From positions 1 to 17,253 of the forward strand of contig DAIAMA010000003.1 in assembly GCA_027438535.1 (NCBI GenBank): DNA of 17,253 nt, given 5' to 3'. A model generated the notes under the pieces. That model saw only the letters and a program-made list of their open reading frames with translations, was not told where the DNA came from and did not search any database. The position numbers and the translations under genes are program-made. Each line of letters opens with the position of its first letter. Position 1 is the stretch's first letter. This DNA comes from a bacterium (GTDB lineage Bacteria > Pseudomonadota > Gammaproteobacteria > Burkholderiales > Thiobacteraceae). Positions 486-16,798 of the stretch are shown here, piece after piece.

Positions 486-1559
486 TTAGACAGACAGCTC
501 CTCCGCCGTAATACGGTAGGCGAACCGCTCGGGCACGAGTTGTTCGCGTGGAATGCCCGCCAATTCCGCGTAGGGATACATCAGATAATTGATCGGGTTA
601 TTTTTCGCCGGGGGCGCGAGCGAGAAATCTCGCGCGTGGTTAAATGCCAACCAATTCATTTCCCAGAAACCGAACAGTTTCGCGCGCAATGCGATGATTT
701 CGGGGTGGCTAAGCGGCAACTTTTCTTCCAGCACGGCCTTGCGCACATCGGCCGGATCCACCGGTATCCAGCCGTGACCGGCCAAATAGAATTCCGCCCG
801 GCAGTGCTGGGCGCGGGTGACATCGCCAGTTTTACCCAGGCTTTTGAACTGCCGAGATTCCGCTACGCGGATGCCGAAAACATCGCGCGCGGGAATGCCC
901 GATGCCCGCGCCAGTCCGACGAACAGTGAGCTGATGTCGGCGCACTTGCCGCCAAGATTGCCGGTTTCCAGCATGGTTTTAATGTCGCCGAGACCGCAGC
1001 CTTGCGTTTTTGGGTCGCGAAAACTGTTCTCCACCACCCACTCGTAAATGGCGCGGGCTTTTTCCAAAGGGGTGTGGGCGCCTCGAGTGGCTTCGCGCGC
1101 GGTATCGAGCACGATGCCATCCACGGGAATGTGCCGGCTGGGCTTGAGGAATGCTTGCACCGCTGCCGGCAAGCTTGGCTTGAATCGGGTAGTCAAGGGT
1201 TTGGGCGGGGCGCTGCGATCCACGGTGCGCGCCACACAGGAAACACTGAGCTGCCGTGGTTTGCTCTCCTGCCAGAGTGCGTTGTAATAGCTGGTATCGG
1301 CGTGCGTATCGACCACGACCCGGTTACTATCGGCCTCGCCGCTATATTCGACCTCGCTGGCCTGTTGCCACCCGCCCATCGCGGTTTCCGGCAGGGGGAG
1401 CCACAGGTTGGCGGGCGTGCCCGCGGCGGGTAAGTCGATGTGGTAAGTCAGGCGGAATGTGCGCCAATGCCGAGCCGGTTCGGCGGCGCTTAGACGCGGA
1501 GAAATACAGGATAGGGCGCTACTGGCAGCGCTAAATTTGACAAAATCGCGGCGTTTCAT
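486..1559 (-). CDS. Tat-exported transglutaminase-like (cysteine protease fold) protein
   Basis: The product is 357 residues from ATG 1559-1557, which is preceded by GGGAG at a sensible distance. An upstream in-frame ATG at 1631 would bury the export signal and is not preferred. The N-terminus MKRRDFVKFSAASSA matches a twin-arginine signal (RR-D-F-V-K) followed by a short hydrophobic stretch and a likely cleavage after SAA near residue 26, so the enzyme is probably periplasmic. The transglutaminase core carries GGKCADISSLFVGLARASG with Cys206, then QHCRAEFYLAGHGWIPVDPAD with His252 and Asp268, a complete Cys-His-Asp triad. Prokaryotic members are usually proteases, amidases or cross-linking enzymes; the substrate cannot be read from the sequence. 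It is the first gene of a probable operon with the S4 protein and yaeQ. Confidence 0.85.
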   Translation of the reverse strand: MKRRDFVKFSAASSALSCISPRLSAAEPARHWRTFRLTYHIDLPAAGTPANLWLPLPETAMGGWQQASEVEYSGEADSNRVVVDTHADTSYYNALWQESKPRQLSVSCVARTVDRSAPPKPLTTRFKPSLPAAVQAFLKPSRHIPVDGIVLDTAREATRGAHTPLEKARAIYEWVVENSFRDPKTQGCGLGDIKTMLETGNLGGKCADISSLFVGLARASGIPARDVFGIRVAESRQFKSLGKTGDVTRAQHCRAEFYLAGHGWIPVDPADVRKAVLEEKLPLSHPEIIALRAKLFGFWEMNWLAFNHARDFSLAPPAKNNPINYLMYPYAELAGIPREQLVPERFAYRITAEELSV

Positions 1560-1624
1560 GTGCTTCTCCCAAGGGGATTGAGGTGCGGAGGACGATATAA
1601 ACATCCTGGCTGCTCGAATTCGTC

Positions 1625-1653
1625 TTGTCAATTATTCCCCGCGCGGTTATTGT
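1625..1653 (+). promoter_or_regulatory. Candidate sigma-70 promoter for egtD
   Basis: TTGTCA (1625-1630, 5 of 6 matches to the -35 consensus) is separated by 17 bp from TATTGT (1648-1653, 4 of 6 matches to the -10 consensus). Transcription would start near 1660, giving a leader of about 36 nt before the egtD GTG. The -35 is part of TTGTCAA, whose complement TTGACA (1631-1626) is a perfect -35 box facing the transglutaminase gene, but no good -10 is seen on that side. Confidence 0.42.
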
Positions 1654-1695: not shown

Positions 1696-2652
1696 GTGTC
1701 CCCGCGTTTTTTTCAGTGCTATGTAGAAAATGCCGCCGAGGTTGTGCTTGAACTGGCGCGCGGCCTGCTCGCGCGCGACGCTTGTATCGCACCCAAATTT
1801 TTTTATGACTTGCTCGGATCGCGCCTGTTCGCGGCGATCACGGCCTTGCCGGAGTATTATCCGCCGCGCGTCGAAGCGGAAATTTTTTCGATCTACCGCG
1901 ATGAAATTACGCACGCCCTCGGCACGCAGGGAACCCTGATCGATTTGGGCGCGGGCAATTGCGAAAAAGTCGCGCGGCTGTTTCCGGCGCTGCAACCGGC
2001 ACAATATGTCGCCGTCGATATTTCAGTAGAATTTCTGCGCGATGCTTTGGCGCATCTGAGCCGGCAATACCCGGATACCGATATGCTGGGCGTGGGCGCG
2101 GATTTTTCCACGCGGCTGGATTTGCCCGCGGAGGTCGCGGATAAGCGGCGCACTTTTTTTTACCTGGGCTCTTCCATCGGTAATTTTTCCGGTGCCGATG
2201 CGGCGATGCTGCTGGGGCGTCTGCGTCAAAACATGAAGACCGGCGATGGCTTGTTGATCGGGATGGATTTAGTCAAAGCCAGCGCCACGCTGGTAGCGGC
2301 TTACGACGATGCTCTAGGCGTCACCGCTGCGTTCAATCGAAATGTGCTATTGCATGTGAACCGCATTTTGGGCAGTGATTTCAAACTCGAGGATTGGCGG
2401 CATGTGGCCTTGTTCAATACGCAAGCCGCGCGGATTGAAATGCATCTTGAGGCAGTGCGCGACGTGCGCATCGCATGGCCCGGCGGCAGCCGCCTATTCG
2501 CCGCGCATGAGCGCATCCATACGGAAAACGCTTATAAATACACACCGGAATCGGCGCGCACCTTGCTACAGCAAGCAGGACTCGCGGTGCGGCAACTTTG
2601 GACCGACCCCATGCGCTATTTCGCGCTCCTCTACGCCACGCCTGAGGCTTAA
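1696..2652 (+). CDS. egtD: EgtD, L-histidine N-alpha-methyltransferase
   Basis: EgtD transfers three methyl groups from S-adenosylmethionine to the alpha-amino group of histidine, giving hercynine (histidine betaine). The 318-residue product has the family pattern throughout: PKFFYDLLGSRLFAAIT then LPEYYPPRVE (34-60), the SAM loop LIDLGAGNCEK (81-91), VAVDIS (105-110), YLGSSIGNFSG (156-166), GIDLVKA-like GMDLVKA (189-195), AAFNRNVLLHVNR (211-223), and HERIHTENAYKY (271-282) for the histidine-binding Glu. The start is GTG; in-frame stops at 1666, 1672 and 1678 exclude anything longer, and no clear Shine-Dalgarno is visible. Its stop overlaps the stop of the convergent selD by 4 bp. Next to selD, senB and senA its hercynine most probably feeds selenoneine synthesis; ergothioneine would need an EgtB-type enzyme not seen here. 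Confidence 0.93.
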   Translation: MSPRFFQCYVENAAEVVLELARGLLARDACIAPKFFYDLLGSRLFAAITALPEYYPPRVEAEIFSIYRDEITHALGTQGTLIDLGAGNCEKVARLFPALQPAQYVAVDISVEFLRDALAHLSRQYPDTDMLGVGADFSTRLDLPAEVADKRRTFFYLGSSIGNFSGADAAMLLGRLRQNMKTGDGLLIGMDLVKASATLVAAYDDALGVTAAFNRNVLLHVNRILGSDFKLEDWRHVALFNTQAARIEMHLEAVRDVRIAWPGGSRLFAAHERIHTENAYKYTPESARTLLQQAGLAVRQLWTDPMRYFALLYATPEA

Positions 2653-3707
2653 CGCACCAGCAATTGCGCCGGCCCGGCTTGCACCTCGCCGATTACCGCG
2701 GCATGCGCAAAACCACCGGCCGCAAAAATCGCCAATACTTCGTCTACGGCCTCTGGCGCGCACGCGGCCAGTAGTCCGCCCGAGGTTTGCGGATCCGTCA
2801 GCAAATCCTGCTGCACTTGTCCCAGTGCCGGGGATAGTTGAATTTCCTTTCCATAGCTGAGCCAGTTGCGGCCGGATGCGCCAGTCACGGTGCCCGCGCT
2901 AATCATCGCTTCCACATGCGGCAGCAGCGGTACTTTGGCCCAATCGATGGCTACCGTCGCTTTGCCGCCACGCGCCAGTTCCAGCGCATGCCCACCCAAA
3001 CCAAAGCCCGTGACGTCGGTTAATGCGTGCACGCCGGGAAGCTCGGCCAAGGCAATGCCCGGCTTGTTGAGTTGCGTAGTCAGTGCCACGAATTGTGCGT
3101 AGCCTTGCGCATCCAATTGACCTTTTTTCAATGCGGCGGAATACACGCCGACGCCTAAAGGTTTGCCGAGAATGAGCCGGTCGCCCGGTTTTGCGCCGGC
3201 ATTTTTCTTCACTCGCTTGGGATGCACCAGCCCCATTACCACTAGGCCATAAATGGGTTCAACCGAGTCAATGGTGTGCCCCCCCGCGATCGGGATACCG
3301 GCTTCGCGGCAAGCGGCTTCGCCGCCTTGAATGATTTTTCCGATGATCTCGGTAGGCAGTTTATTCACCGGCATGGCGACCAGCGCCAAGGCCATGATGG
3401 GTTTGCCGCCCATGGCGTAAATATCCGAAATAGCGTTGGTGGCGGCGATACGCCCAAAATCAAAAGGGTCATCCACGATAGGCATGAAAAAATCCGTGGT
3501 GGCGATCAGCGCCTGCGTCTCATTGATTTGATACACCGCGGCGTCATCGGAAGTCTCGATGCCAACCAGTAGTTGTTCCGGGAGGGGCGTACCCTGGCTA
3601 TTCCGGAGTATTTCGGCGAGCACGGCAGGCGCGATTTTGCAGCCGCAGCCGCCGCCATGCGAAAACGCGGTGAGTTTAATTTCGGGAATTTCTATGGGAA
3701 TATTCAT
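2649..3707 (-). CDS. selD: Selenide, water dikinase (SelD; SenC of the selenoneine pathway)
   Basis: SelD makes selenophosphate from selenide and ATP. The 352-residue product has the diagnostic N-terminus FSHGGGCGCKIAP with Cys21, Cys23 and Lys24 corresponding to the catalytic Cys-x-Cys-Lys of E. coli SelD, so this copy uses cysteine, not selenocysteine. DDAAVY (about 53-58), TTDFFMPIVDDPFDFGRIAA, NAISDIYAMGG, GGHTIDS, TDVTGFGLGGH and DLLTDPQTSGGLL are the ATP- and metal-binding signatures of the family. It lies 11 bp downstream of senB on the same strand, so the two are almost certainly co-transcribed. That pairing marks it as the SenC-type supplier for selenosugar formation, although it may also feed tRNA or protein selenation elsewhere in the genome; no selA, selB, selC or mnmH is present in the window. 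Confidence 0.95.
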   Translation of the reverse strand: MNIPIEIPEIKLTAFSHGGGCGCKIAPAVLAEILRNSQGTPLPEQLLVGIETSDDAAVYQINETQALIATTDFFMPIVDDPFDFGRIAATNAISDIYAMGGKPIMALALVAMPVNKLPTEIIGKIIQGGEAACREAGIPIAGGHTIDSVEPIYGLVVMGLVHPKRVKKNAGAKPGDRLILGKPLGVGVYSAALKKGQLDAQGYAQFVALTTQLNKPGIALAELPGVHALTDVTGFGLGGHALELARGGKATVAIDWAKVPLLPHVEAMISAGTVTGASGRNWLSYGKEIQLSPALGQVQQDLLTDPQTSGGLLAACAPEAVDEVLAIFAAGGFAHAAVIGEVQAGPAQLLVR

Positions 3708-3718
3708 AAGTAGCTCAC

Positions 3719-4705
3719 TTATCTGGCATAATTTTCCGAATGTTCGAGTCTAGCATCCTTGAACAATTGCCGCACCAACTGCCGTTCGCGTTCCGGTTCG
3801 AACAGCGCCGAGCGTGCCGCGCATTGCGTCAGTAAATGCGCGGCAAAGGTCTGATCCGAGGCAAAGCGTAGCATCAGTTTAGCCAGTGCTGCGGCGTCGC
3901 CCAATGGAAAATAACCCGTGTAATCCTGCCCCAGCATGCCAATATTACCGCCGATAAAACTGGCCAGCACCGGCACATTGGATTGCACGGCTTCGATAAT
4001 GACATGGGCGCCGCCTTCCATTGCCGATGGGTGGATCAGCGCCCGACTGCGCGCGATCCAACGCCGGGCCTGGCTTCGCGGTAAACCGCCAAGCCAGCGA
4101 TAGCCGGGACAGCGGGCCATGGTTTGCCGCGCGGCTTGCCCTAGCGTCTCATCCAAGGGATTGCCGATATGCACCACGCGGATAACCGATGACGCGGGCA
4201 GGAGTTGCACCGCGCGCATCAGCGTCAGCGGATCTTTTTCAGCGCGCAAATGGCCCACGGCAACAAAATCAAAAGTGCGCTTATTGGGTTTGAGGCGTGT
4301 TAAACGAGGCGCGGACTGGATGATGACACGCGCTTTTATGCGCAGGCTAGGCGCAAGCTCCAGCAAGGCTTGCTCCTGCAACACGACCAAGTGAGTTGCC
4401 GCCTCCAGGGAGTGCAATACGGCGCCATCCAGCTTCATGTCGCGGTAAAGATCGGTCCCCGTCAGCACGACAACCAGGGGACGGTCTGGATGCGCATCGG
4501 CGAACCGGGCGATGCTATCGGCCGAACGCCGCGCATGCAAGGCGATCATGACGTCTGCCGGCGTACCGTCCCATGTCAGCGCTACCGAGGCATCGGCATC
4601 CGCGGCAAGAAATGTTTGCCAGCGCGATGCGGTATGCCAGTTGCCGTTATTGGCGTTTGCCAATGCCGGGCTGATAATGGCGCATGTGGGTTGAGTATCT
4701 GACAT
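3719..4705 (-). CDS. senB: SenB-type selenosugar synthase (GT-B glycosyltransferase fold)
   Basis: The 328-residue product has a two-domain GT4-like layout: an N-terminal domain starting CAIISPALANANNGNWHTAS, LTGTDLYRDM (81-90) in the middle, and a C-terminal nucleotide-sugar domain with FDFVAVGHLRAEKDPLTL (145-162) and the EX7E signature EGGAHVIIE (Glu230, Glu238). The NGNWHTA and TGTDLYRD blocks are characteristic of the SenB family, formerly an orphan glycosyltransferase family of proteobacteria. SenB joins selenophosphate to the sugar of a UDP-sugar (UDP-GlcNAc in the characterised Variovorax enzyme), making a selenosugar. It sits directly upstream of selD and divergent from senA, the arrangement expected for this pathway. 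No strong Shine-Dalgarno precedes ATG 4705-4703. The assignment rests on family motifs plus neighbourhood. Confidence 0.9.
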   Translation of the reverse strand: MSDTQPTCAIISPALANANNGNWHTASRWQTFLAADADASVALTWDGTPADVMIALHARRSADSIARFADAHPDRPLVVVLTGTDLYRDMKLDGAVLHSLEAATHLVVLQEQALLELAPSLRIKARVIIQSAPRLTRLKPNKRTFDFVAVGHLRAEKDPLTLMRAVQLLPASSVIRVVHIGNPLDETLGQAARQTMARCPGYRWLGGLPRSQARRWIARSRALIHPSAMEGGAHVIIEAVQSNVPVLASFIGGNIGMLGQDYTGYFPLGDAAALAKLMLRFASDQTFAAHLLTQCAARSALFEPERERQLVRQLFKDARLEHSENYAR

Positions 4706-4720
4706 GGGTATAGAGTAGAT

Positions 4721-5926
4721 ATGCTACAGCTAAACCAGCAAGGCATGCTTGCCAGGCACTATAACAAGGATCAATTAGCCGCGGCAATGCGCGATGCGCG
4801 CGCCAATTTATTGGCGTGCGTGGATGATTTGTCCGATGCGCAGTGGCGCGTACCTTACCATCCCAACTATAACCCGGTGGCGTGGGAAATCGGCCATGTC
4901 GCCTGGTTCGCGGAATGGTGGACTTTGCGCGGCCCGCATCGGATGGATGACAGTGGCCAGCCGCAAGCACGGCTGCCCGTGCGCCATGCCGGGCCCGATC
5001 ACACCTTCAACTCAAGCATCATTCCGCACACGGCGCGCTGGGAAGTCAGCCTGCCGGAGCGCCGCGCGCTATATGACATGCTGGCGGCGCAACTTGAGTC
5101 GACCTTGGCGAGCCTGGCGCGCTGCGGCGATTCCGATGCGGATTTGTATTTTTACCGGCTAGCCTTGTTTCACGAAGACATGCATGTGGAGGCGCTCACC
5201 TATTTACGCGACCATTTATGTTTTTCTGCTCCCGCGGGAACGGTATTGCCCAGCGTGCCGATGGAGGCCGCGCAGGTAACGATAGCGGCCGGTGCGGCGC
5301 GTATCGGCCAGGAGCCGAACGGCGCCGGGTTCTACTTCGACAATGAAAAATGGGCACACGAGGTCATGATTCCCTCACTACACATGGATGCCACGCCCGT
5401 CTCGTGCGGCGCGTTTTTGCGTTTTGTGGAAGCCGGCGGATACGACACGCCGGATTTTTGGCCGGATGCGGCAGGGCATTGGCGCGGCAGCGTAACGCGA
5501 TCCCATCCGGAGCGCTGGCGCAAGACGGCAAACGAATGGCAATGCCGGTGGTTCGATCGGTGGCTACCCTTGCCGGCGGATATGCCCATCACGCACGTCA
5601 ACGCCTATGAGGCGCAGGCTTACTGCCTCTGGGCAAAACGCGACTTGCCGACCGAGGCGCAATGGGAGGCTGCCGCACGGCACGACGCCATGCAATGGGG
5701 TGGCCTGGTATGGGAGTGGATGAGCAATCCGTTCATGCCTTACCCGGGCTTTGCTCCGGATCCTTACCGCGATTATTCCGCGCCATGGTTTTCCAGTCAC
5801 CGCAGCCTGCGAGGCGGCAGTTTCGCGACCCATGCACGCATGCATCATCTGCAGTATCGAAACTTTTATCTACCCGAGCGCAGCGATATCTTTGCGGGAT
5901 TTCGGACTTGCCTCAGCGCCCGATAA
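4721..5926 (+). CDS. senA: SenA, selenoneine synthase (EgtB-like non-haem iron enzyme)
   Basis: The 401-residue product combines a DinB-like N-terminal domain with a C-terminal formylglycine-generating-enzyme-like domain, as in EgtB. The iron ligands are His59 (WEIGHVAWF) and His151/His155 (FHEDMHVEAL). The C-terminal half shows VSCGAFLRFVEAGGY, VNAYEAQAYCLWA, LPTEAQWEAAAR, GLVWEWMSNPFMPYPGF, LRGGSFATH and YRNFYLPERSDIFAGFRT. The VWEW block and the SenB/SelD neighbours favour SenA over EgtB. SenA couples hercynine to the selenosugar with oxygen, forming the carbon-selenium bond that leads to selenoneine. Two starts are possible: ATG 4721, where a TATAGA -10-like box (4709-4714) would give a leaderless message, and ATG 4745, preceded by AAGG but very closely. 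The divergent senB start is only 15 bp from ATG 4721. Confidence 0.88.
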   Translation: MLQLNQQGMLARHYNKDQLAAAMRDARANLLACVDDLSDAQWRVPYHPNYNPVAWEIGHVAWFAEWWTLRGPHRMDDSGQPQARLPVRHAGPDHTFNSSIIPHTARWEVSLPERRALYDMLAAQLESTLASLARCGDSDADLYFYRLALFHEDMHVEALTYLRDHLCFSAPAGTVLPSVPMEAAQVTIAAGAARIGQEPNGAGFYFDNEKWAHEVMIPSLHMDATPVSCGAFLRFVEAGGYDTPDFWPDAAGHWRGSVTRSHPERWRKTANEWQCRWFDRWLPLPADMPITHVNAYEAQAYCLWAKRDLPTEAQWEAAARHDAMQWGGLVWEWMSNPFMPYPGFAPDPYRDYSAPWFSSHRSLRGGSFATHARMHHLQYRNFYLPERSDIFAGFRTCLSAR

Positions 5927-11212: not shown

Positions 11213-11330
11213 ACAATAGTTAACAGATGCTATATATGTAGGCAATATATCTGTATCGCTTACGTACCACGGTTGGGTGCCCGGATCAAACTTGCTCGGG
11301 CATCTTTACACTGATTACGTTAACTATTGT
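11213..11330. repeat. 12-bp perfect inverted repeat spanning the pilin leader
   Basis: ACAATAGTTAAC (11213-11224) and GTTAACTATTGT (11319-11330) are exact reverse complements, with centres 106 bp apart. The left arm lies at the predicted transcription start; the right arm runs into TTTTATTAATATTTTT just before the pilin Shine-Dalgarno. Possible readings are a pair of operator sites, an attenuator stem or the ends of a small inserted element. The symmetry is certain; the role is not. Confidence 0.5.
11275..11305 (+). promoter_or_regulatory. Leader hairpin upstream of the pilin gene
   Basis: GGGTGCCCG (11275-11283) and CGGGCATCT (11297-11305) can pair over nine positions, two of them G-U, around a 13-nt loop. 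It is not followed by a U-run, so it is not a classical terminator. It lies inside the 12-bp inverted repeat and about 60 nt before the pilin start, so it may shape the mRNA leader. Confidence 0.4.
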
Positions 11331-11365
11331 TTTTATTAATATTTTTATCAGAGGGGGGAGATTTC

Positions 11366-11635
11366 ATGCGCATGTACACACCGAAAATCAAGCAATATGG
11401 CCAAGGCATGACCGAATATATCGTTATCGTGGCGTTGATTGCGATCGCGGCAATCGCCGTTTACCAGTTTTTTGGCCAAACCGTCCGTAGCCAGACAGCC
11501 GGTATCGCCGATGAGATTTCAGGCAAGTCGGCGGCCACGGCAACCGCAGCGGCGCAAGCTTCCGCTGGTTTGGCTGAAACGGAAGGCACCACGAAAAAAG
11601 GTCTGGATAACTATAAAAACGATAATTCCCGTTGA
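11366..11635 (+). CDS. flp: Flp-type (type IVb) major pilin candidate
   Basis: The 89-residue product is a class IVb prepilin. A short basic leader ends KQYG, followed by QGMTEYIVIVALIAIAAIAV. Cleavage after Gly12 puts Glu at +5 and Tyr at +6 of the mature protein, the Flp signature, followed by the single hydrophobic helix that packs in the pilus core. The C-terminal part (45-89) is Ala/Thr/Lys-rich and polar. At 77 mature residues it is somewhat longer than the classical 50-60-residue Flp. ATG 11366 is chosen because GAGGGGGGAG lies just upstream; an in-frame ATG at 11327 would lack that. It heads the pilus cluster after a long AT-rich leader, so it is probably the major subunit and highly expressed. 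Confidence 0.88.
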   Translation: MRMYTPKIKQYGQGMTEYIVIVALIAIAAIAVYQFFGQTVRSQTAGIADEISGKSAATATAAAQASAGLAETEGTTKKGLDNYKNDNSR

Positions 11636-11661
11636 TGCAGACTCGATAGCCGAACAACAAC

Positions 11662-13065
11662 GTGGTGCAACACGTCAGCTTCAAACGAAGCTGGCCGTTG
11701 TTGAAGGGGAGGCGTTACCAGCAAGGGCAAGCACTCGTCTACGGCATTTTTGTCATGATGGGCGGACTTGCGGCGTTGTTCTTCCTCTTTAACACCGGCC
11801 AGCTTTCGCGCGAGAAAACTAAGCTCGTCAACACCGCCGACGCAGTGGCTTATAGCGCCGGAGTAATGAATGCGCGCGCGCTGAATTTCGAGGCCTACAC
11901 CAATCGTGCGATGGTGGCCAACACAGTTGCCATTGCGCAATTGGTGAGCCTGTCTTCGTGGATGCAGTATGTGAACAATCTGGCCGACTACGGCTGGGTA
12001 GCGGATAACCCGAAATTTGCTCCGTTCTATCCCTCTTACGAAGCGGCGCTATCGGCCAAGGGTTTGGTTGACCCCAGCGATCTTGGGAAACTTGCCGAAA
12101 TCTCCGATGACATCATCCGCAAGGCGCTGATGACCGCTCAGCAGGTCGCCTACGCGGGTCTTATTCCCGCACGCCAAGAAATAATGGATGATGTGGCAAA
12201 AGCCAATTATCACAGCGATGGATTGGTCACGGTTGAGCAATTGACACTGCCTTCCAATGATTTCACCGGCTTCGTCTCGCGCTATAGCGATGACCAGCGC
12301 ACTCGCTTTGCCGAGGTCGCCAAAATCGCCGCCTACCGGGATAAATTTTTGCCCAAGCGCAGTTGGCTACTGCCAGGCTTATGGTCCGATTGTGGCGGCG
12401 CCACGGCAACCGGCAGGGTTGATTTTCTCACGCGCCGGGGCGGCACGGAATTACTCGGCTTCGATGAGTGGAAAGCCATGGATACGCTGTCGGAGAAACG
12501 CTGGGTGCCAAAAAGCAAAACCGATGCGCTGTGCATGGCGATTGCCGAAACCCCGGCTGGCTGGGGGCTGCAATCCGCCGCCGACAGTCCGTCGCTTGAC
12601 CTTGATCCCACCCATTACGACTATTCCCTAGCGGTCAATCCGGGCTCCAGCGCCTTGGCGATAGCGACATCCAGTGACGCCTGGGGCTATTCCGGCCTGC
12701 CGAATTTTTACGACCTCTCGGACGATGCGCTCAAACAGGATGATCCGCGTCTGCAATTCGCCATCCGCGTGCGGCGCGACAAAAGCCAAACTGTGACGTC
12801 CGAGGGGCGTTCGACTATCGCAACTAGCAGCCGGCTGAATGCTTACCACGCGCTCCCGGCCGGCGGCAGTGAATTGGTGGCGGTATCGGCCTCGGAAGTT
12901 TTCTTCCAGCGGCCCGCGGATGCTCAAAATAATGTTTATGGAGAAAGTATTGGCAAGCCGCACGAGATCGGCAGCCTGTTCAACCCCTATTGGCAAGTGC
13001 GGCTGATTCAATCCGCGGACAATATTCGGAAAGCCCAAGCCATGCAGGGGGCGGTATTGCCATGA
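11662..13065 (+). CDS. TadG-like pilus-assembly protein with pilin-like N-terminus
   Basis: The 467-residue product starts at GTG 11662, 26 bp after the pilin stop. Its N-terminus QQGQALVYGIFVMMGGLAALFFLFNTGQ resembles TadE/TadG-type proteins, with one hydrophobic helix (about 27-45), followed by KLVNTADAVAYSAGVMNARALNFEAYTNRAMVANTVAIAQLVS, a block typical of betaproteobacterial Tad-associated proteins. At the candidate processing site GQALVYG the +5 position is Tyr, not Glu, so prepilin processing is doubtful and it may simply stay membrane-anchored. The rest is a large periplasmic domain ending in PYWQVRLIQSADNIRKAQAM. TadG-like proteins are thought to help pilus assembly or anchoring in the envelope. 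The neighbouring TadE-like gene and cpaB support that context. Confidence 0.82.
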   Translation: MVQHVSFKRSWPLLKGRRYQQGQALVYGIFVMMGGLAALFFLFNTGQLSREKTKLVNTADAVAYSAGVMNARALNFEAYTNRAMVANTVAIAQLVSLSSWMQYVNNLADYGWVADNPKFAPFYPSYEAALSAKGLVDPSDLGKLAEISDDIIRKALMTAQQVAYAGLIPARQEIMDDVAKANYHSDGLVTVEQLTLPSNDFTGFVSRYSDDQRTRFAEVAKIAAYRDKFLPKRSWLLPGLWSDCGGATATGRVDFLTRRGGTELLGFDEWKAMDTLSEKRWVPKSKTDALCMAIAETPAGWGLQSAADSPSLDLDPTHYDYSLAVNPGSSALAIATSSDAWGYSGLPNFYDLSDDALKQDDPRLQFAIRVRRDKSQTVTSEGRSTIATSSRLNAYHALPAGGSELVAVSASEVFFQRPADAQNNVYGESIGKPHEIGSLFNPYWQVRLIQSADNIRKAQAMQGAVLP

Positions 13066-13075
13066 GAACAGCATC

Positions 13076-14005
13076 ATGAGACGCCTGCCGCTCCCGGCTT
13101 TGAACAGCAATACTTGGATTACGCTGGGGATGGTTGCCGGGCTGGCCATGGCGTCACTTGATGTCCATGCTGCTTGGCACGACGAACACCCAGGTGCCGA
13201 GCTACAGGTGCATTTCGTGCATTTGACTGGCTACGCCGGAGATAACGCGGTAAATCGCCGCAATCTCTTGGACGAGCACAAGGCTTGCGTCGACCTGAAT
13301 CGGTCTCTTGGGCGACCCGCTCGCCCGTTGCCACCGGATGGCATTCCTGCCAATGCGCATCCGGAAGATGTCGAGATTTATTATTCGCCCAACCGGACGC
13401 TTACCGTCACTAAGGGCACACTGTACAAAATTAATTTCGATACCTGTGCGCTCACCGCCTTTCCCCATCACAGACTGGAATTACATTCCGCGATTGGGCG
13501 CTGCGATATCGACTTGATCCAGCGAGAAGCGCGTGGCGTGTGCGACGACCGGGCGCATGCGCGCGCGCCCAATACTACCTTGGCGCATCTTGCGCCCACC
13601 GAAGTTCCGCCGGTTGATCTCGACAAGGTGCCGCCCGCCATGCGCGCCCAAGTCGCAGCACAATTGGAGCGGCTCAAAAATTTACCCCAAGGACCCAAGA
13701 ATTTGTATGGGGCAGCACTCGTCGCAACCGGCGCATACAAGGACATTGCCGGTTACCGGTGTGAATCCTATCGCGCCGATGCGTTGAAGAGCGAACGGTG
13801 TATTGCGCATCCGCATAGTCCTTTCCCGATTCCCGCCGCCTCCTTCAATGCCGGTATTCCCGGCTTATTGCTGGACATGGAAAACACGGGATGGACGCTG
13901 CGCGCGCAAGAAGTGCGGATGAATATATGGGTATCCAAAGATTTATTCGTGGTACCCGCAGGCTTGAAAATGAAAAGTATTGCCTCGCCGGGAGTCCACC
14001 CGTGA
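13076..14005 (+). CDS. Secreted six-cysteine protein of the Tad locus, function unknown
   Basis: The 309-residue product has a signal peptide (MRRLP..., hydrophobic 14-28, likely cleavage after HAA at 33), so it should be periplasmic or outer-membrane associated. The mature part has six cysteines (71, 124, 143, 156, 229, 242), enough for three disulfides. The C-terminal half reads IAGYRCESYR and KSERCIAH, then SKDLFVVPAGLKM. This faintly recalls secreted beta-rich DUF4412/LolA-like proteins, where an AGxxCxxY turn is common; that is a suggestion only. It starts 10 bp after the TadG-like gene, and its TGA overlaps the GTG of the TadE-like gene by 4 bp, so it is translationally embedded in the pilus operon and probably serves it. 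I do not recognise a named family. Confidence 0.78.
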   Translation: MRRLPLPALNSNTWITLGMVAGLAMASLDVHAAWHDEHPGAELQVHFVHLTGYAGDNAVNRRNLLDEHKACVDLNRSLGRPARPLPPDGIPANAHPEDVEIYYSPNRTLTVTKGTLYKINFDTCALTAFPHHRLELHSAIGRCDIDLIQREARGVCDDRAHARAPNTTLAHLAPTEVPPVDLDKVPPAMRAQVAAQLERLKNLPQGPKNLYGAALVATGAYKDIAGYRCESYRADALKSERCIAHPHSPFPIPAASFNAGIPGLLLDMENTGWTLRAQEVRMNIWVSKDLFVVPAGLKMKSIASPGVHP

Positions 14006-14829
14006 CGAGCTTCAGCATAAAAACGCAGCGCTTGTGTCCACTGAAGACACCGCATAAGAACCAGCGGGGGCAGGCGCTGGCAGAGTTTCTGGCGGTGTCG
14101 GTGGCCATGATCCCGCTTTTCCTGCTCATGCCCATGATCGGTAAATATCAAGACATCAGCCACAGCACGCAGATGGCGAGCCGTTATGTCGCGTTTGACG
14201 CCATGAACCGTAACGACTCGATGGGTACTTGGAAACCCGAAAGCCAGTTGGCGGATGAAGTGCGACGGCGTTTCTTCAGCAATTCCGATGCGCCCATCAA
14301 AACCGATGACGTCGCGGGCGATTTCCCGGCGAACCGGAATCTGTTCTGGAGCGACCCCAAAGGCGCTCCGCTGATCAAGCGTTTCAATAGCGATGTCAGT
14401 GTCAGTTTTGGATTCGGCAACGGCGCCCACCATGGCGACGCGTTCAGCAAGACTTCGGACGGCGTGCCATTTGGGCTGCACGACCAGCTTGGTTTGCGGG
14501 CTCGCGGTATCTACACCGCCAATGTCTCGGTGACGCTGGCCAATTTGCCAAGCGGCTTGAAGTTTTACGAACCGTTCGATCGGATCAATCTGTCGATTAC
14601 GCGCAGCACCAGCGTGGTGTTTGATCCATGGGCGGCCAGAAATCCAGAGCAAGTAGAGGCGCGTATCGGCGGCAATCCGCTTATTTTCCCCGCAGCCAGC
14701 TTGCTGGGGGTCGGCTCGCTTGTTGACGCGTCGGTGGCAATTATCGATCTGCCGGGGGCGCTCTCCGGACCCAAACTCGGCAAGCTCGATTTCTGGCGCG
14801 ATGTCGTGCCAGCAGACCGGTTGAAATAG
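14002..14829 (+). CDS. TadE-like pseudopilin
   Basis: The 275-residue product uses GTG 14002, with GGGAG 8 bp upstream and a 4-bp GTGA overlap with the preceding stop. A longer ATG-started reading exists but lies inside the upstream gene. Residues 20-45 are NQRGQALAEFLAVSVAMIPL followed by FLLMPM. Cleavage after Gly23 places Glu28 at +5 with Phe at +6, matching the TadE pseudopilin signature, then one hydrophobic helix. KYQDISHSTQMASRYVAFDAM follows the helix, as in betaproteobacterial TadE-like proteins, and the remainder is a periplasmic domain. TadE-type pseudopilins are processed by the prepilin peptidase TadV and are needed for pilus assembly rather than forming the main fibre. Position between two secreted unknowns and upstream of cpaB fits that role. 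Confidence 0.85.
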   Translation: MTSFSIKTQRLCPLKTPHKNQRGQALAEFLAVSVAMIPLFLLMPMIGKYQDISHSTQMASRYVAFDAMNRNDSMGTWKPESQLADEVRRRFFSNSDAPIKTDDVAGDFPANRNLFWSDPKGAPLIKRFNSDVSVSFGFGNGAHHGDAFSKTSDGVPFGLHDQLGLRARGIYTANVSVTLANLPSGLKFYEPFDRINLSITRSTSVVFDPWAARNPEQVEARIGGNPLIFPAASLLGVGSLVDASVAIIDLPGALSGPKLGKLDFWRDVVPADRLK

Positions 14830-14841
14830 GGCAGGGCAAAA

Positions 14842-15636
14842 ATGATGCGTGATCATCCTCAACCCGGTTCCACAGCGATTGTGTTCCGGGTGGCGCACAA
14901 GCAGCGTTGGCGCGCGCTTGTGCTTGGACTGGCGCTTATGGCGCCGGAAAATTTTGCGCTAGCGCAAGCATCCTGGCCGACGATTGCGTTGCCGAAGGAC
15001 GTCCGGGCCTTTGACATTGGCGAGCAGTTAACCATCAACGGCTTGCCGATGCGTATGCAAGGTTTTGTCTCCGCCCTCAAACCGGTGCAACTGGCCGAGT
15101 GGTTTCGTCAGCGCATGGGCAAGCCGCTGGTCGAAAATACATTGGCGAACAAGCTGATACTGGGGCGCGCGCAGGGCGAATATTATTTGACGGTGCAACT
15201 GGAACCCGCCGCAACGGGTACCCGCGGTATCGCTGCCGTCTCGCATCTGAAAGCGGCTTACGACGAGCGCGCCGAAAATCGCGCAAGCACCGAGCATTGG
15301 CTATCCCGGTTCCCGGCAGGTTCAAAATTGCTGAGCCAGATGCGCTCCGAAGATGCGGGCAAAGTCTCCACGTACCTGCTGGTGGTCAATACCCAAAGCG
15401 AAAATCTCAACCGCAAGCGCTTGAAGAACCTGATGCGCAACGACGGCTTTGAGCTCGAACATGAAGCCATGCCGGACAATAAAACCGGCGCCGCATTGCC
15501 CGAGGGTATCGCGCATGGGAAAACCCTGTTTTTCAAAGGCCCGGGCAAAGAAGCGATGGCGACCATTTATCGGGACAACCACGGCCGCACGGCCATCGTG
15601 CTCAACACACTTACCCAGATGGAGCGATTCAAATGA
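14842..15636 (+). CDS. Exported two-repeat protein of the Tad locus, function unknown
   Basis: The 264-residue product starts at ATG 14842 behind AGGG, 12 bp after the TadE-like stop. Residues 22-43 form a hydrophobic export segment ending FALAQA, so the protein is probably periplasmic. There seem to be two similar halves. The first (about 55-135) runs strand NGLPMRMQGF, helix LKPVQLAEWFRQRMG, strand GEYYLTVQLEP, strand TRGIAAVS. The second (about 157-260) runs strand KVSTYLLVVN, helix NLNRKRLKNLMRNDGF, strand GKTLFFKG, strand GRTAIVLNTL. This suggests a duplicated alpha/beta module, perhaps for binding a partner in the envelope. There are no cysteines and no catalytic pattern I recognise. 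Its stop overlaps the next start as ATGA, so it is coupled to the small pilin-like gene. No family name can be given. Confidence 0.75.
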   Translation: MMRDHPQPGSTAIVFRVAHKQRWRALVLGLALMAPENFALAQASWPTIALPKDVRAFDIGEQLTINGLPMRMQGFVSALKPVQLAEWFRQRMGKPLVENTLANKLILGRAQGEYYLTVQLEPAATGTRGIAAVSHLKAAYDERAENRASTEHWLSRFPAGSKLLSQMRSEDAGKVSTYLLVVNTQSENLNRKRLKNLMRNDGFELEHEAMPDNKTGAALPEGIAHGKTLFFKGPGKEAMATIYRDNHGRTAIVLNTLTQMERFK

Positions 15637-15857
15637 TCCAGCCGCCACACCGCAGGTGCGAGTTTGCTCGCATGCAAATTACCCGCATTGCCTATCAATG
15701 CGGTCAGTCGTCAATTGAATACACGGTGGTTTGTACGGCCATCGCCTTTGCTCTGGGTGTGGGCATGAGCGATCACAGCAGCGTTTTATGGGTACTCATC
15801 GAGGCTTTCAAAACCGCTTACCAAAAAATCAGCTACGCGATGTCTCTGCCGACTTAA
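15633..15857 (+). CDS. Second small Flp-like pilin or pseudopilin
   Basis: The 74-residue product overlaps the previous gene by 4 bp (ATGA). Residues 22-47 read QCGQSSIEYTVVCTAIAFAL. Cleavage after Gly24 gives QSSIEY, with Glu at +5 and Tyr at +6, the Flp processing signature, followed by a hydrophobic helix that is broken by GVGMSDHSS and a C-terminal segment VLWVLIEAFKTAYQKISYAM. The mature form would be 50 residues, typical for Flp pilins. An internal ATG at 15672 would give a shorter leader and is also possible. The sequence differs strongly from the first pilin and it lies late in the operon, just before cpaB, so it is more likely a minor pilin or initiator than the main subunit. Expression is inferred from coupling. 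Confidence 0.68.
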   Translation: MIQPPHRRCEFARMQITRIAYQCGQSSIEYTVVCTAIAFALGVGMSDHSSVLWVLIEAFKTAYQKISYAMSLPT

Positions 15858-15859
15858 TC

Positions 15860-16798
15860 ATGAAACTACTCCAATTTAAAAAAATTAAACCCAACAAAAC
15901 CTGGATCGTGCTGGGCGTCGCCCTCGCCATCGGTTTGCTGGCCGCGCTCGCCGCGCGCAGCTATTTGTCCAGCCGGATGGACGCCATCGATGCGCGTGCC
16001 AGGGGCAGAATGGTCAATGTGGTGGTCGCCAAACGCGATCTTAACAAAGGCGCCAGGCTATCCCCCGATAGCGTCGCCGTGCGCGCGATCCCTCTCGACT
16101 ATGCGCAGTCGCTCGCCGTCACTCCCGATGCCTTCGATCGTATTGATGGCCAGGTATTGGCCTACCCGGTCAAAGCGGGTGAAATGATTCTGTGGGGCTT
16201 AACGGAAGGGAAAAAGGTAGCGACGTTTTCCACGCAGGTAGAAGCCGGACATCGCGCCATGACCGTCCCGGTGGATGAGATCAATTCCATTTCCGGCTTG
16301 CTCGAGCCTGGCGATATCGTTGATCTGATTGCCACGTTCGACAAGAACGGTAAAAAAATTACTTTCCCGCTACTGCAAAACGTGCAAGTCATGGCGACCG
16401 GACAGCGCTCGGTGGACGATCCGAAGAGCGGGACGCGTCGCGAATATTCCACAGTCACGTTCGACATCACGCCGGAGCAGGCGCAAAACGTCATCGTCGC
16501 GCGCGACGCAGGCAAGATCACCGCGCTATTGCGTAATCCGCAAGATAAGCAAGTTTTTGGCAAGACGCGAGATGTGGCCGCCCTGCTTGGCCTGAAGGGC
16601 GAGGGTGGGGTGAACGACACGCAAGTGCCGGTTCTCTATGGCGGGCGCAGCGGCAAGATTTCGCCGGAGGGTTTGAAGTTGAGACAGTATATGAGCGCCG
16701 CCAGCGTGGGCGACGTTACTCAGGCCACTCAGCGGCAGAATGAGAGTACTCCGGCGATACCTTACCCGCCGGTGATGAACAGCGGCAATCCGTATTAG
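15860..16798 (+). CDS. cpaB: CpaB/RcpC, Flp pilus assembly protein with SAF domain
   Basis: The 312-residue product starts at ATG 15860, 2 bp after the preceding stop. A longer in-frame start at 15731 lies inside the small pilin gene and is rejected. The order is a basic N-terminus, one membrane helix (about 14-33), a SAF domain (about 51-115: VVVAKRDLNKGARLSPDSV, then YPVKAGEMI) and the RcpC/CpaB domain (about 120-265: MTVPVDEINSISGLLEPGDIVDL, FPLLQNVQVMATGQ, VTFDITPEQAQNVIVARDAGKITALLRNP), ending in a proline-rich tail. CpaB/RcpC proteins are periplasmic, inner-membrane-anchored partners of the Tad secretin; SAF domains suggest peptidoglycan or glycan binding. The adjacent downstream secretin gene confirms the assignment. 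A 60-bp piece (16192-16251) recurs at the right edge. Confidence 0.93.
   Translation: MKLLQFKKIKPNKTWIVLGVALAIGLLAALAARSYLSSRMDAIDARARGRMVNVVVAKRDLNKGARLSPDSVAVRAIPLDYAQSLAVTPDAFDRIDGQVLAYPVKAGEMILWGLTEGKKVATFSTQVEAGHRAMTVPVDEINSISGLLEPGDIVDLIATFDKNGKKITFPLLQNVQVMATGQRSVDDPKSGTRREYSTVTFDITPEQAQNVIVARDAGKITALLRNPQDKQVFGKTRDVAALLGLKGEGGVNDTQVPVLYGGRSGKISPEGLKLRQYMSAASVGDVTQATQRQNESTPAIPYPPVMNSGNPY
16192..16251 (+). repeat. 60-bp direct repeat, copy 1 (inside cpaB)
   Basis: Begins GTGGGGCTTAACGGAAGGG and ends GTAGAAGCCGGACA. It is in the correct cpaB frame, encoding about residues 112-131, so it is the genuine context. Every base matches 17194-17253; the base before the repeat (T against C) differs. 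Confidence 0.97.

Follow-up and report, generated by a model that had tools for sequence, protein, structure and literature searches.

A predicted selenoneine biosynthesis cluster in a Thiobacteraceae genome and the apparent take-over of selenophosphate supply by its SelD

Introduction

The SenC, SenB and SenA steps of selenoneine synthesis have been published for Variovorax paradoxus (PMC9814287; PMC10702425, PMC10891094). The sen clusters have been described as selD together with at least two genes (PMC9814287) and, in another paper, as a three-gene cluster (PMC10702425). Here we analyzed contig DAIAMA010000003.1 from a genome of the Thiobacteraceae (Burkholderiales), the whole of which (17,253 bases) is called the window; the source assembly comprises 1.75 Mb in 497 contigs and is 66% complete. 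Four open reading frames (ORFs), each open from start to stop, occupy positions 1,696 to 5,926. They very probably form a complete selenoneine biosynthesis cluster, a predicted further member of the published SenABC system, whose SelD would also act as the general selenophosphate synthetase of the cell, since no native selD remains beside mnmH.

In the proposed pathway, SelD (SenC) would convert selenide and ATP into selenophosphate, and SenB would transfer the selenium of selenophosphate onto a UDP-sugar, releasing a 1-seleno-sugar. EgtD would trimethylate histidine to hercynine. SenA would use iron and oxygen to couple hercynine with the seleno-sugar, giving a selenoxide whose breakdown yields selenoneine. 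The cluster SelD would, in addition, supply MnmH for the formation of 2-selenouridine in tRNA and, where present, SelA for that of selenocysteine.

Results

Predicted functions of the four genes

The features of the cluster and their predicted products are as follows.

1,696 to 2,652, plus strand: egtD, histidine N-alpha-trimethyltransferase yielding hercynine (TIGR03438, PF10017, best solved chain 4pim, 3e-60)
2,530 to 2,532, plus strand: EgtD codon 279, GCT for Ala; the residue is Ser in all 51 EgtD rows compared
2,649 to 3,707, minus strand: selD/senC, selenophosphate synthetase of the Cys type (TIGR00476, best solved chain 3u0o, 1e-101, tree)
3,719 to 4,705, minus strand: senB, selenosugar synthase (TIGR04348, solved SenBs, key residues kept)
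4,706 to 4,720, no strand: 15-base spacer between the start codons of the divergent senB and senA (ORF coordinates)
4,721 to 5,926, plus strand: senA, selenoneine synthase, an EgtB-like iron enzyme with His59, His151 and His155 (NF041186, 8ryz and 8k5i at 6e-91, trees)

A preliminary description of this DNA had reported egtD, selD/senC, senB and senA as contiguous and assigned them to the SenABC pathway. All four frames were found there, each product scoring over its curated NCBIfam cut-off, and the assignment was borne out by family models, solved relatives, SenB residues, trees of SenA and SenB, and the same gene order in three relatives.

SenA scored 476.4 bits with NF041186 (cut-off 420) and 101.7 bits with the C-terminal signature TIGR04373 (cut-off 71). 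Its nearest solved chains were 8ryz and 8k5i, followed by OvsA (8ux5, 7e-60) and EgtB (4x8b, 1e-39). His59, His151 and His155, which had been singled out in the preliminary description of an EgtB-like enzyme, are invariant in an alignment of 20 sequences; by analogy with EgtB, they would be the iron ligands. SenA trees were built with FastTree (142 rows, including solved SenA, OvsA and EgtB) and with IQ-TREE (41 rows, including one EgtB row on a long branch, L169_p_3, that was picked up by a name match). In the larger tree, a 23-row set (support 99) brought window SenA together with those of two genus mates, G002 and G004, and with SenAs of Variovorax and Rhizobacter, and a branch of length 2.09 (support 100) separated the SenA-OvsA side from the EgtBs.

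The presence of egtD and the homology of SenA to EgtB (224.8 bits with the EgtB model TIGR03440) would also fit an ergothioneine cluster, in which the SenA-like gene would be an EgtB using a sulfur donor while selD and the glycosyltransferase served other ends. However, this EgtB score lies far below the cut-off of 360, the true EgtBs of the order score 395 to 600 bits and form a separate group in the tree, and SenB and SelD are directly adjoining, as in most SenA loci with SenB. We rejected this reading on the model scores and the tree, and consider it very unlikely. No EgtB over cut-off was found in the 66%-complete source assembly, where the only matches were SenA itself, in line with the earlier statement that the window holds no sulfur-specific EgtB. 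Across the genus, likewise, no EgtB over cut-off was found, and EgtD would therefore be tied to selenoneine, with no other known client in the genus. Among 150 genomes of the order (source genome included), the counts over cut-off were 38 for SenA, 35 for EgtB and 48 for SenB. The SenA count is conservative, since four SenA-like genes with SenB on the same contig (G084, G120, G132 and G147) scored 352 to 409 bits, under the cut-off.

SenB scored 429.9 bits with TIGR04348 (cut-off 300), and its nearest solved chains (8k5u, 8jjq, 8jjn and 8fbx) matched at about 1e-87. The pair Glu230 and Glu238 of the E-X7-E motif, a motif noted earlier for a SenB-type glycosyltransferase, is invariant in an alignment of 17 sequences. 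In V. paradoxus SenB, importance has been demonstrated or suggested for N20, T23, H58, D86, R155, K158, E231 and E239 (PMC10891094, PMC10702425), and the equivalents in window SenB are all identical.

SenB was found over cut-off without SenA over cut-off in nine genomes of the order (G008, G009, G023, G037, G052, G070, G077, G096 and G113), two of them with an adjoining selD, so that seleno-sugars may have other fates. Together with a changed residue of EgtD that might alter its substrate (see below), this would allow the product of the cluster to be some other selenium compound, with the seleno-sugar or another methylated amine as its precursor. The window, however, has both SenA and EgtD, and its SenA lies inside the SenA group; we regard another product as extremely unlikely.

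In the nine SenA-less SenB loci (L226 to L234), all nine rows keep every SenB key residue. In G052 and G077, senB adjoins selD (on one contig each), which is a lead to another seleno-sugar product, and in L228 the SenB gene lies amid motAB, HDOD, SpoU and feoB genes. G008 and G009 have neither SenA nor EgtD alongside SenB.

EgtD scored 354.8 bits with TIGR03438 (cut-off 290.9), matched PF10017 and had as its best solved chain 4pim, which we take to be the M. smegmatis enzyme. SelD scored 429.5 bits with TIGR00476 (cut-off 125), and its best solved chain, 3u0o, is presumably E. coli SelD. The loop SHGGGCGCKI carries Cys and not selenocysteine, as the preliminary description had read it; its GCGCK segment aligned with 3u0o, and we assume that this region is the catalytic Cys/Sec-Lys loop.

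Layout of the cluster

The layout was compared across 118 non-redundant SenA loci, comprising the window, 40 further above-threshold loci of the 150 genomes, and 77 public ones. The latter came from the best 80 matches, of which 79 were distinct; L159 (the same as G002) and L212 (a duplicate) were left out. Many of the 118 loci end at contig ends, and absence of a gene is accordingly not proof. SenB was present in 96 loci, divergent from senA in 93 of them and co-directional in three; selD followed senB in 56, and EgtD was found in 36/118. The two-direction layout, which had been set apart from a simple single operon, is thus the rule, and a reading of it as unusual was rejected. The spacer between senB and senA is shorter in the window than the median of about 65 bases in the 93 divergent loci (tblastn ends). 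The direct convergence of egtD on selD, with a 4-base overlap in the window, is uncommon but not unique, as it occurs in 5 of 118 loci: the window, three members of its genus (G002, G003 and G004) and L165. These three genus mates have the identical four genes in identical order, egtD of G004 being cut by a contig end. The SenAs of G002 (contig C70) and of JADMJT010000050.1 (isolate MAG_47, a Burkholderiales metagenome-assembled genome, MAG) are 80% identical to window SenA.

Promoter-like matches for senB (4,787 to 4,758, minus strand) and senA (4,650 to 4,678, plus strand) each lie inside the coding start of the other gene and are weak. The scan gave six promoter-like sites, against a mean of 3.1 (standard deviation 1.6) in shuffled sequence, and seven terminator-like sites, against 7.6; neither was used for conclusions.

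Other selenium uses of the cell

The preliminary description proposed that selenium is used here for a small molecule rather than, or besides, selenoprotein or tRNA, and suggested a genome search for mnmH, selA, selB and egtB. The source genome has mnmH (365.8 bits, cut-off 219.75). At the end of one contig it also carries part of selA, covering model positions 2 to 198 of 455 (253.9 bits, cut-off 267.9); genes for formate-dehydrogenase beta and gamma, for FdhE and for a C-terminal portion of alpha are on that contig as well. Thus, "besides" holds and "rather than" does not. No SelB over cut-off was found in this genome, which says little at 66% completeness.

In G002 (98% complete) we found selA (549.9 bits, cut-off 267.9), selB (488.3, cut-off 242.25), tRNA-Sec and mnmH. 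G004 carries selA as well as a gene for formate dehydrogenase-N alpha (1517.4 bits, cut-off 814.2), whose single in-frame TGA corresponds to residue 217. G003 (93% complete) has mnmH and gave no selA match. All four SenA carriers, i.e., the source genome, G002, G003 and G004, have mnmH over cut-off.

Loss of the native selD beside mnmH

SelD was surveyed in ten genomes: the source genome, seven others of the genus (G001 to G007) and two of the family (G008 and G009). One copy over cut-off was present in the source genome, G002, G003, G004, G008 and G009, two in G001, G005 and G006, and none in G007 (70% complete). The sole copy in each SenA carrier is that of the sen cluster. In 5/5 SenA-less relatives with an mnmH locus (G001, G005, G006, G008 and G009, none with SenA over cut-off), selD lies beside and divergent from mnmH, towards a response-regulator gene, with two further large ORFs between selD and the response-regulator gene in G008. 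The gap between the response regulator and mnmH in the four SenA carriers (4/4) is 398 to 498 bases and lacks selD. G007, without mnmH over cut-off, was left out of these counts.

The G004 spacer matches positions 1 to 418 of the G005 locus (82% identity) and then 1,387 to 1,458 (94%). It also contains a remnant of native SelD, encoding the C-terminal 30 residues with 80% identity (E value 8e-14, database of the four spacers); against another native SelD the remnant showed 62% identity over 29 residues (E value 3e-4, ten loci). Both ends of the G002 spacer have matches in G005 (84% over 280 bases and 90% over 48), the match of the source genome is weaker (69% over 182 and 86% over 42), and that of G003 covers one end only (72% over 179). 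The sen SelD seems to have replaced the original copy of the cell, which was deleted.

A second, divergent SelD (52% identical to that of the window) lies beside a TauE/SafE-type membrane protein in L104, L106 and L108, which belong to G006, G005 and G001, respectively; no SelA was found in these three genomes.

Probable separate origins of the sen clusters in the genus

In a 40-row IQ-TREE tree of SelD, the native copies of G001, G005, G006, G008 and G009 grouped together (96/97). Sen SelDs of Variovorax and Rhizobacter, among others, shared a set (89/98) with the SelDs of the window, G002 and G004, and those of Glaciimonas and Herminiimonas grouped with the SelD of G003 (89/80). Constraining the window, G002 and G004 copies to join the native SelDs was rejected (p-AU 0.0068), as was the same constraint on G003 (p-AU 0.0036), and a single clade for all four was rejected less strongly (0.027). 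These p values are somewhat optimistic, because the groups were first seen in a quick tree. For SenA, a single clade of the genus was rejected with p 1.2e-5 (IQ-TREE).

A tree built from UvrB, the aminotransferase, MnmH and the response regulator paired the source genome with G003 (91/94, not starred). It placed G005, in which the native selD is retained, with G002, G004 and G007 (100/99). These placements call for two or more losses of the native selD, barring its regain. We therefore propose that two sen clusters of separate origin probably each took over the whole selenophosphate supply in this genus, with at least two independent deletions of native selD, only in sen-carrying lineages. The basis for this is a small one, with 4 of the 38 SenA-bearing genomes covered, in two lineages of a single genus, and the p value of 0.027 is weaker than the others.

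The EgtD residue and other points against a functional cluster

Several observations weigh against a working selenoneine cluster with a sole, general SelD. Residue 279 of EgtD is Ala, encoded by GCT, where Ser was found in 51/51 compared rows (33/33 from SenA loci, 17/17 from EgtB loci, and the solved EgtD; the G031 and G064 genes are in both sets). SenB has Glu at the position of the studied V157, although the same is true of 96/101 other SenB rows. One locus of the order, L096 (G012:C6), passes the SenA threshold with 427.1 bits, but its partner in the tree is OvsA, so the SenA model alone is no proof of SenA. Finally, at 66% completeness, the source assembly may lack an egtB or a further selD that the genome has. 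As a side observation, the SenA model may label some OvsA-type enzymes SenA, as in L096.

In the EgtD pocket, the examined Tyr, Asn, Tyr and Glu are kept and one Ser is changed to Ala; the Ser aligned to residue 279 and the nearby Glu, which is kept, presumably hold the histidine imidazole. A literature search on the EgtD residue numbers found nothing. The substitution may lower EgtD activity and the hercynine supply, be neutral, or be an assembly error. It would also fit a decaying cluster, with egtD impaired, selenoneine no longer made, and selD retained through its other uses for tRNA and protein selenium. Consistent with decay, the EgtD end branch (0.22) exceeds the other two in its three-row clade (0.05 and 0.08). 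However, all four frames are open, the end branches of SenA (0.13 versus 0.10 to 0.11) and SenB (0.11 versus 0.09) resemble those of the sister species, and only 6 EgtD columns conserved in at least 90% of rows differ in the window, compared with 4 in each sister. We consider decay very unlikely. The earlier claim that the cluster, with its own egtD, is self-sufficient from histidine is to be read with caution on account of Ala279.

Pairs of egtD and senA without senB or selD in the locus were seen in L149, L170, L172, L183, L185, L187, L190, L196 and G109 (L086); in G109, the contig bearing the pair also has a SenB, some 50 kb away. In L183, from another MAG, the pair stands beside the same aminotransferase-uvrB pair as in the window, with tRNA-Arg there.

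Genomic position and neighboring genes

The cluster adjoins tRNA-Asn, an aminotransferase gene and uvrB. No sen genes were found around the same block in nine relatives, among which the stretches of G001 and G009 end near the aminotransferase and tell little. In G002 and G004 the cluster lies beside an alpha-amylase-family gene, and in G003 it lies elsewhere. The position of the cluster thus differs among genus mates, and nothing more is claimed. A mobile island at tRNA-Asn was considered and rejected, as no repeat of the tRNA 3' end of at least 12 bases occurs elsewhere in the window. Pfam named no integrase among 13 window proteins, namely the transglutaminase, the products of the four cluster genes, the aminotransferase and the products of seven downstream ORFs. 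The tRNA was the sole Rfam match in the window at the gathering threshold.

A transglutaminase-like protein is encoded at 486 to 1,631 (minus strand); its KRRDFVKFSAA segment resembles a Tat signal by eye, and a relative with 46% identity occurs in one other sen locus, L174. Flp/Tad pilus genes occupy 11,327 to 16,798 (plus strand), including a TadE/G-like protein (11,662 to 13,065) and CpaB (15,731 to 16,798).

Discussion

The pathway itself is of an already known kind, and the cluster adds one more predicted egtD-linked selenoneine producer, an environmental beta-proteobacterium; the apparent take-over by SelD is the less ordinary part. Our searches of PMC text found no title or abstract on a housekeeping selD replaced by a sen SelD, within a coverage that most subscription journals lie outside. 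If the take-over is true, tRNA selenation, selenocysteine (formate dehydrogenase) and selenoneine would all hang on one gene of an acquired cluster, which would be hard to lose whatever benefit selenoneine itself brings: an antioxidant pathway would be retained by selection acting on tRNA selenation or on a selenoprotein formate dehydrogenase. This provides a testable account of the persistence of sen clusters. It would also mean that the presence of selD in a genome gives no indication of which selenium trait it serves.

As in V. paradoxus DSM 30034, SenA, SenB and a SelD-type SenC are encoded together in the window, and six Variovorax loci (L140 to L142, L144, L147 and L148) share its divergent order of senA and senB-selD. 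The window differs from the V. paradoxus cluster in the rare convergence of egtD on selD, and its SenA and SenB belong to another subclade than the solved chains of the V. paradoxus type. With the bacterial egtB-egtD ergothioneine genes it has in common EgtD and an EgtB-like iron enzyme; it has SenA in place of EgtB, plus SenB and SelD. OvsA of the ovoselenol route is a related selenoxide synthase (8ux5), and window SenA lies outside the OvsA pair in the tree. Finally, the housekeeping selD beside mnmH (selU) also makes selenophosphate, but the native, mnmH-linked SelDs of this family form a group separate from the cluster SelD.

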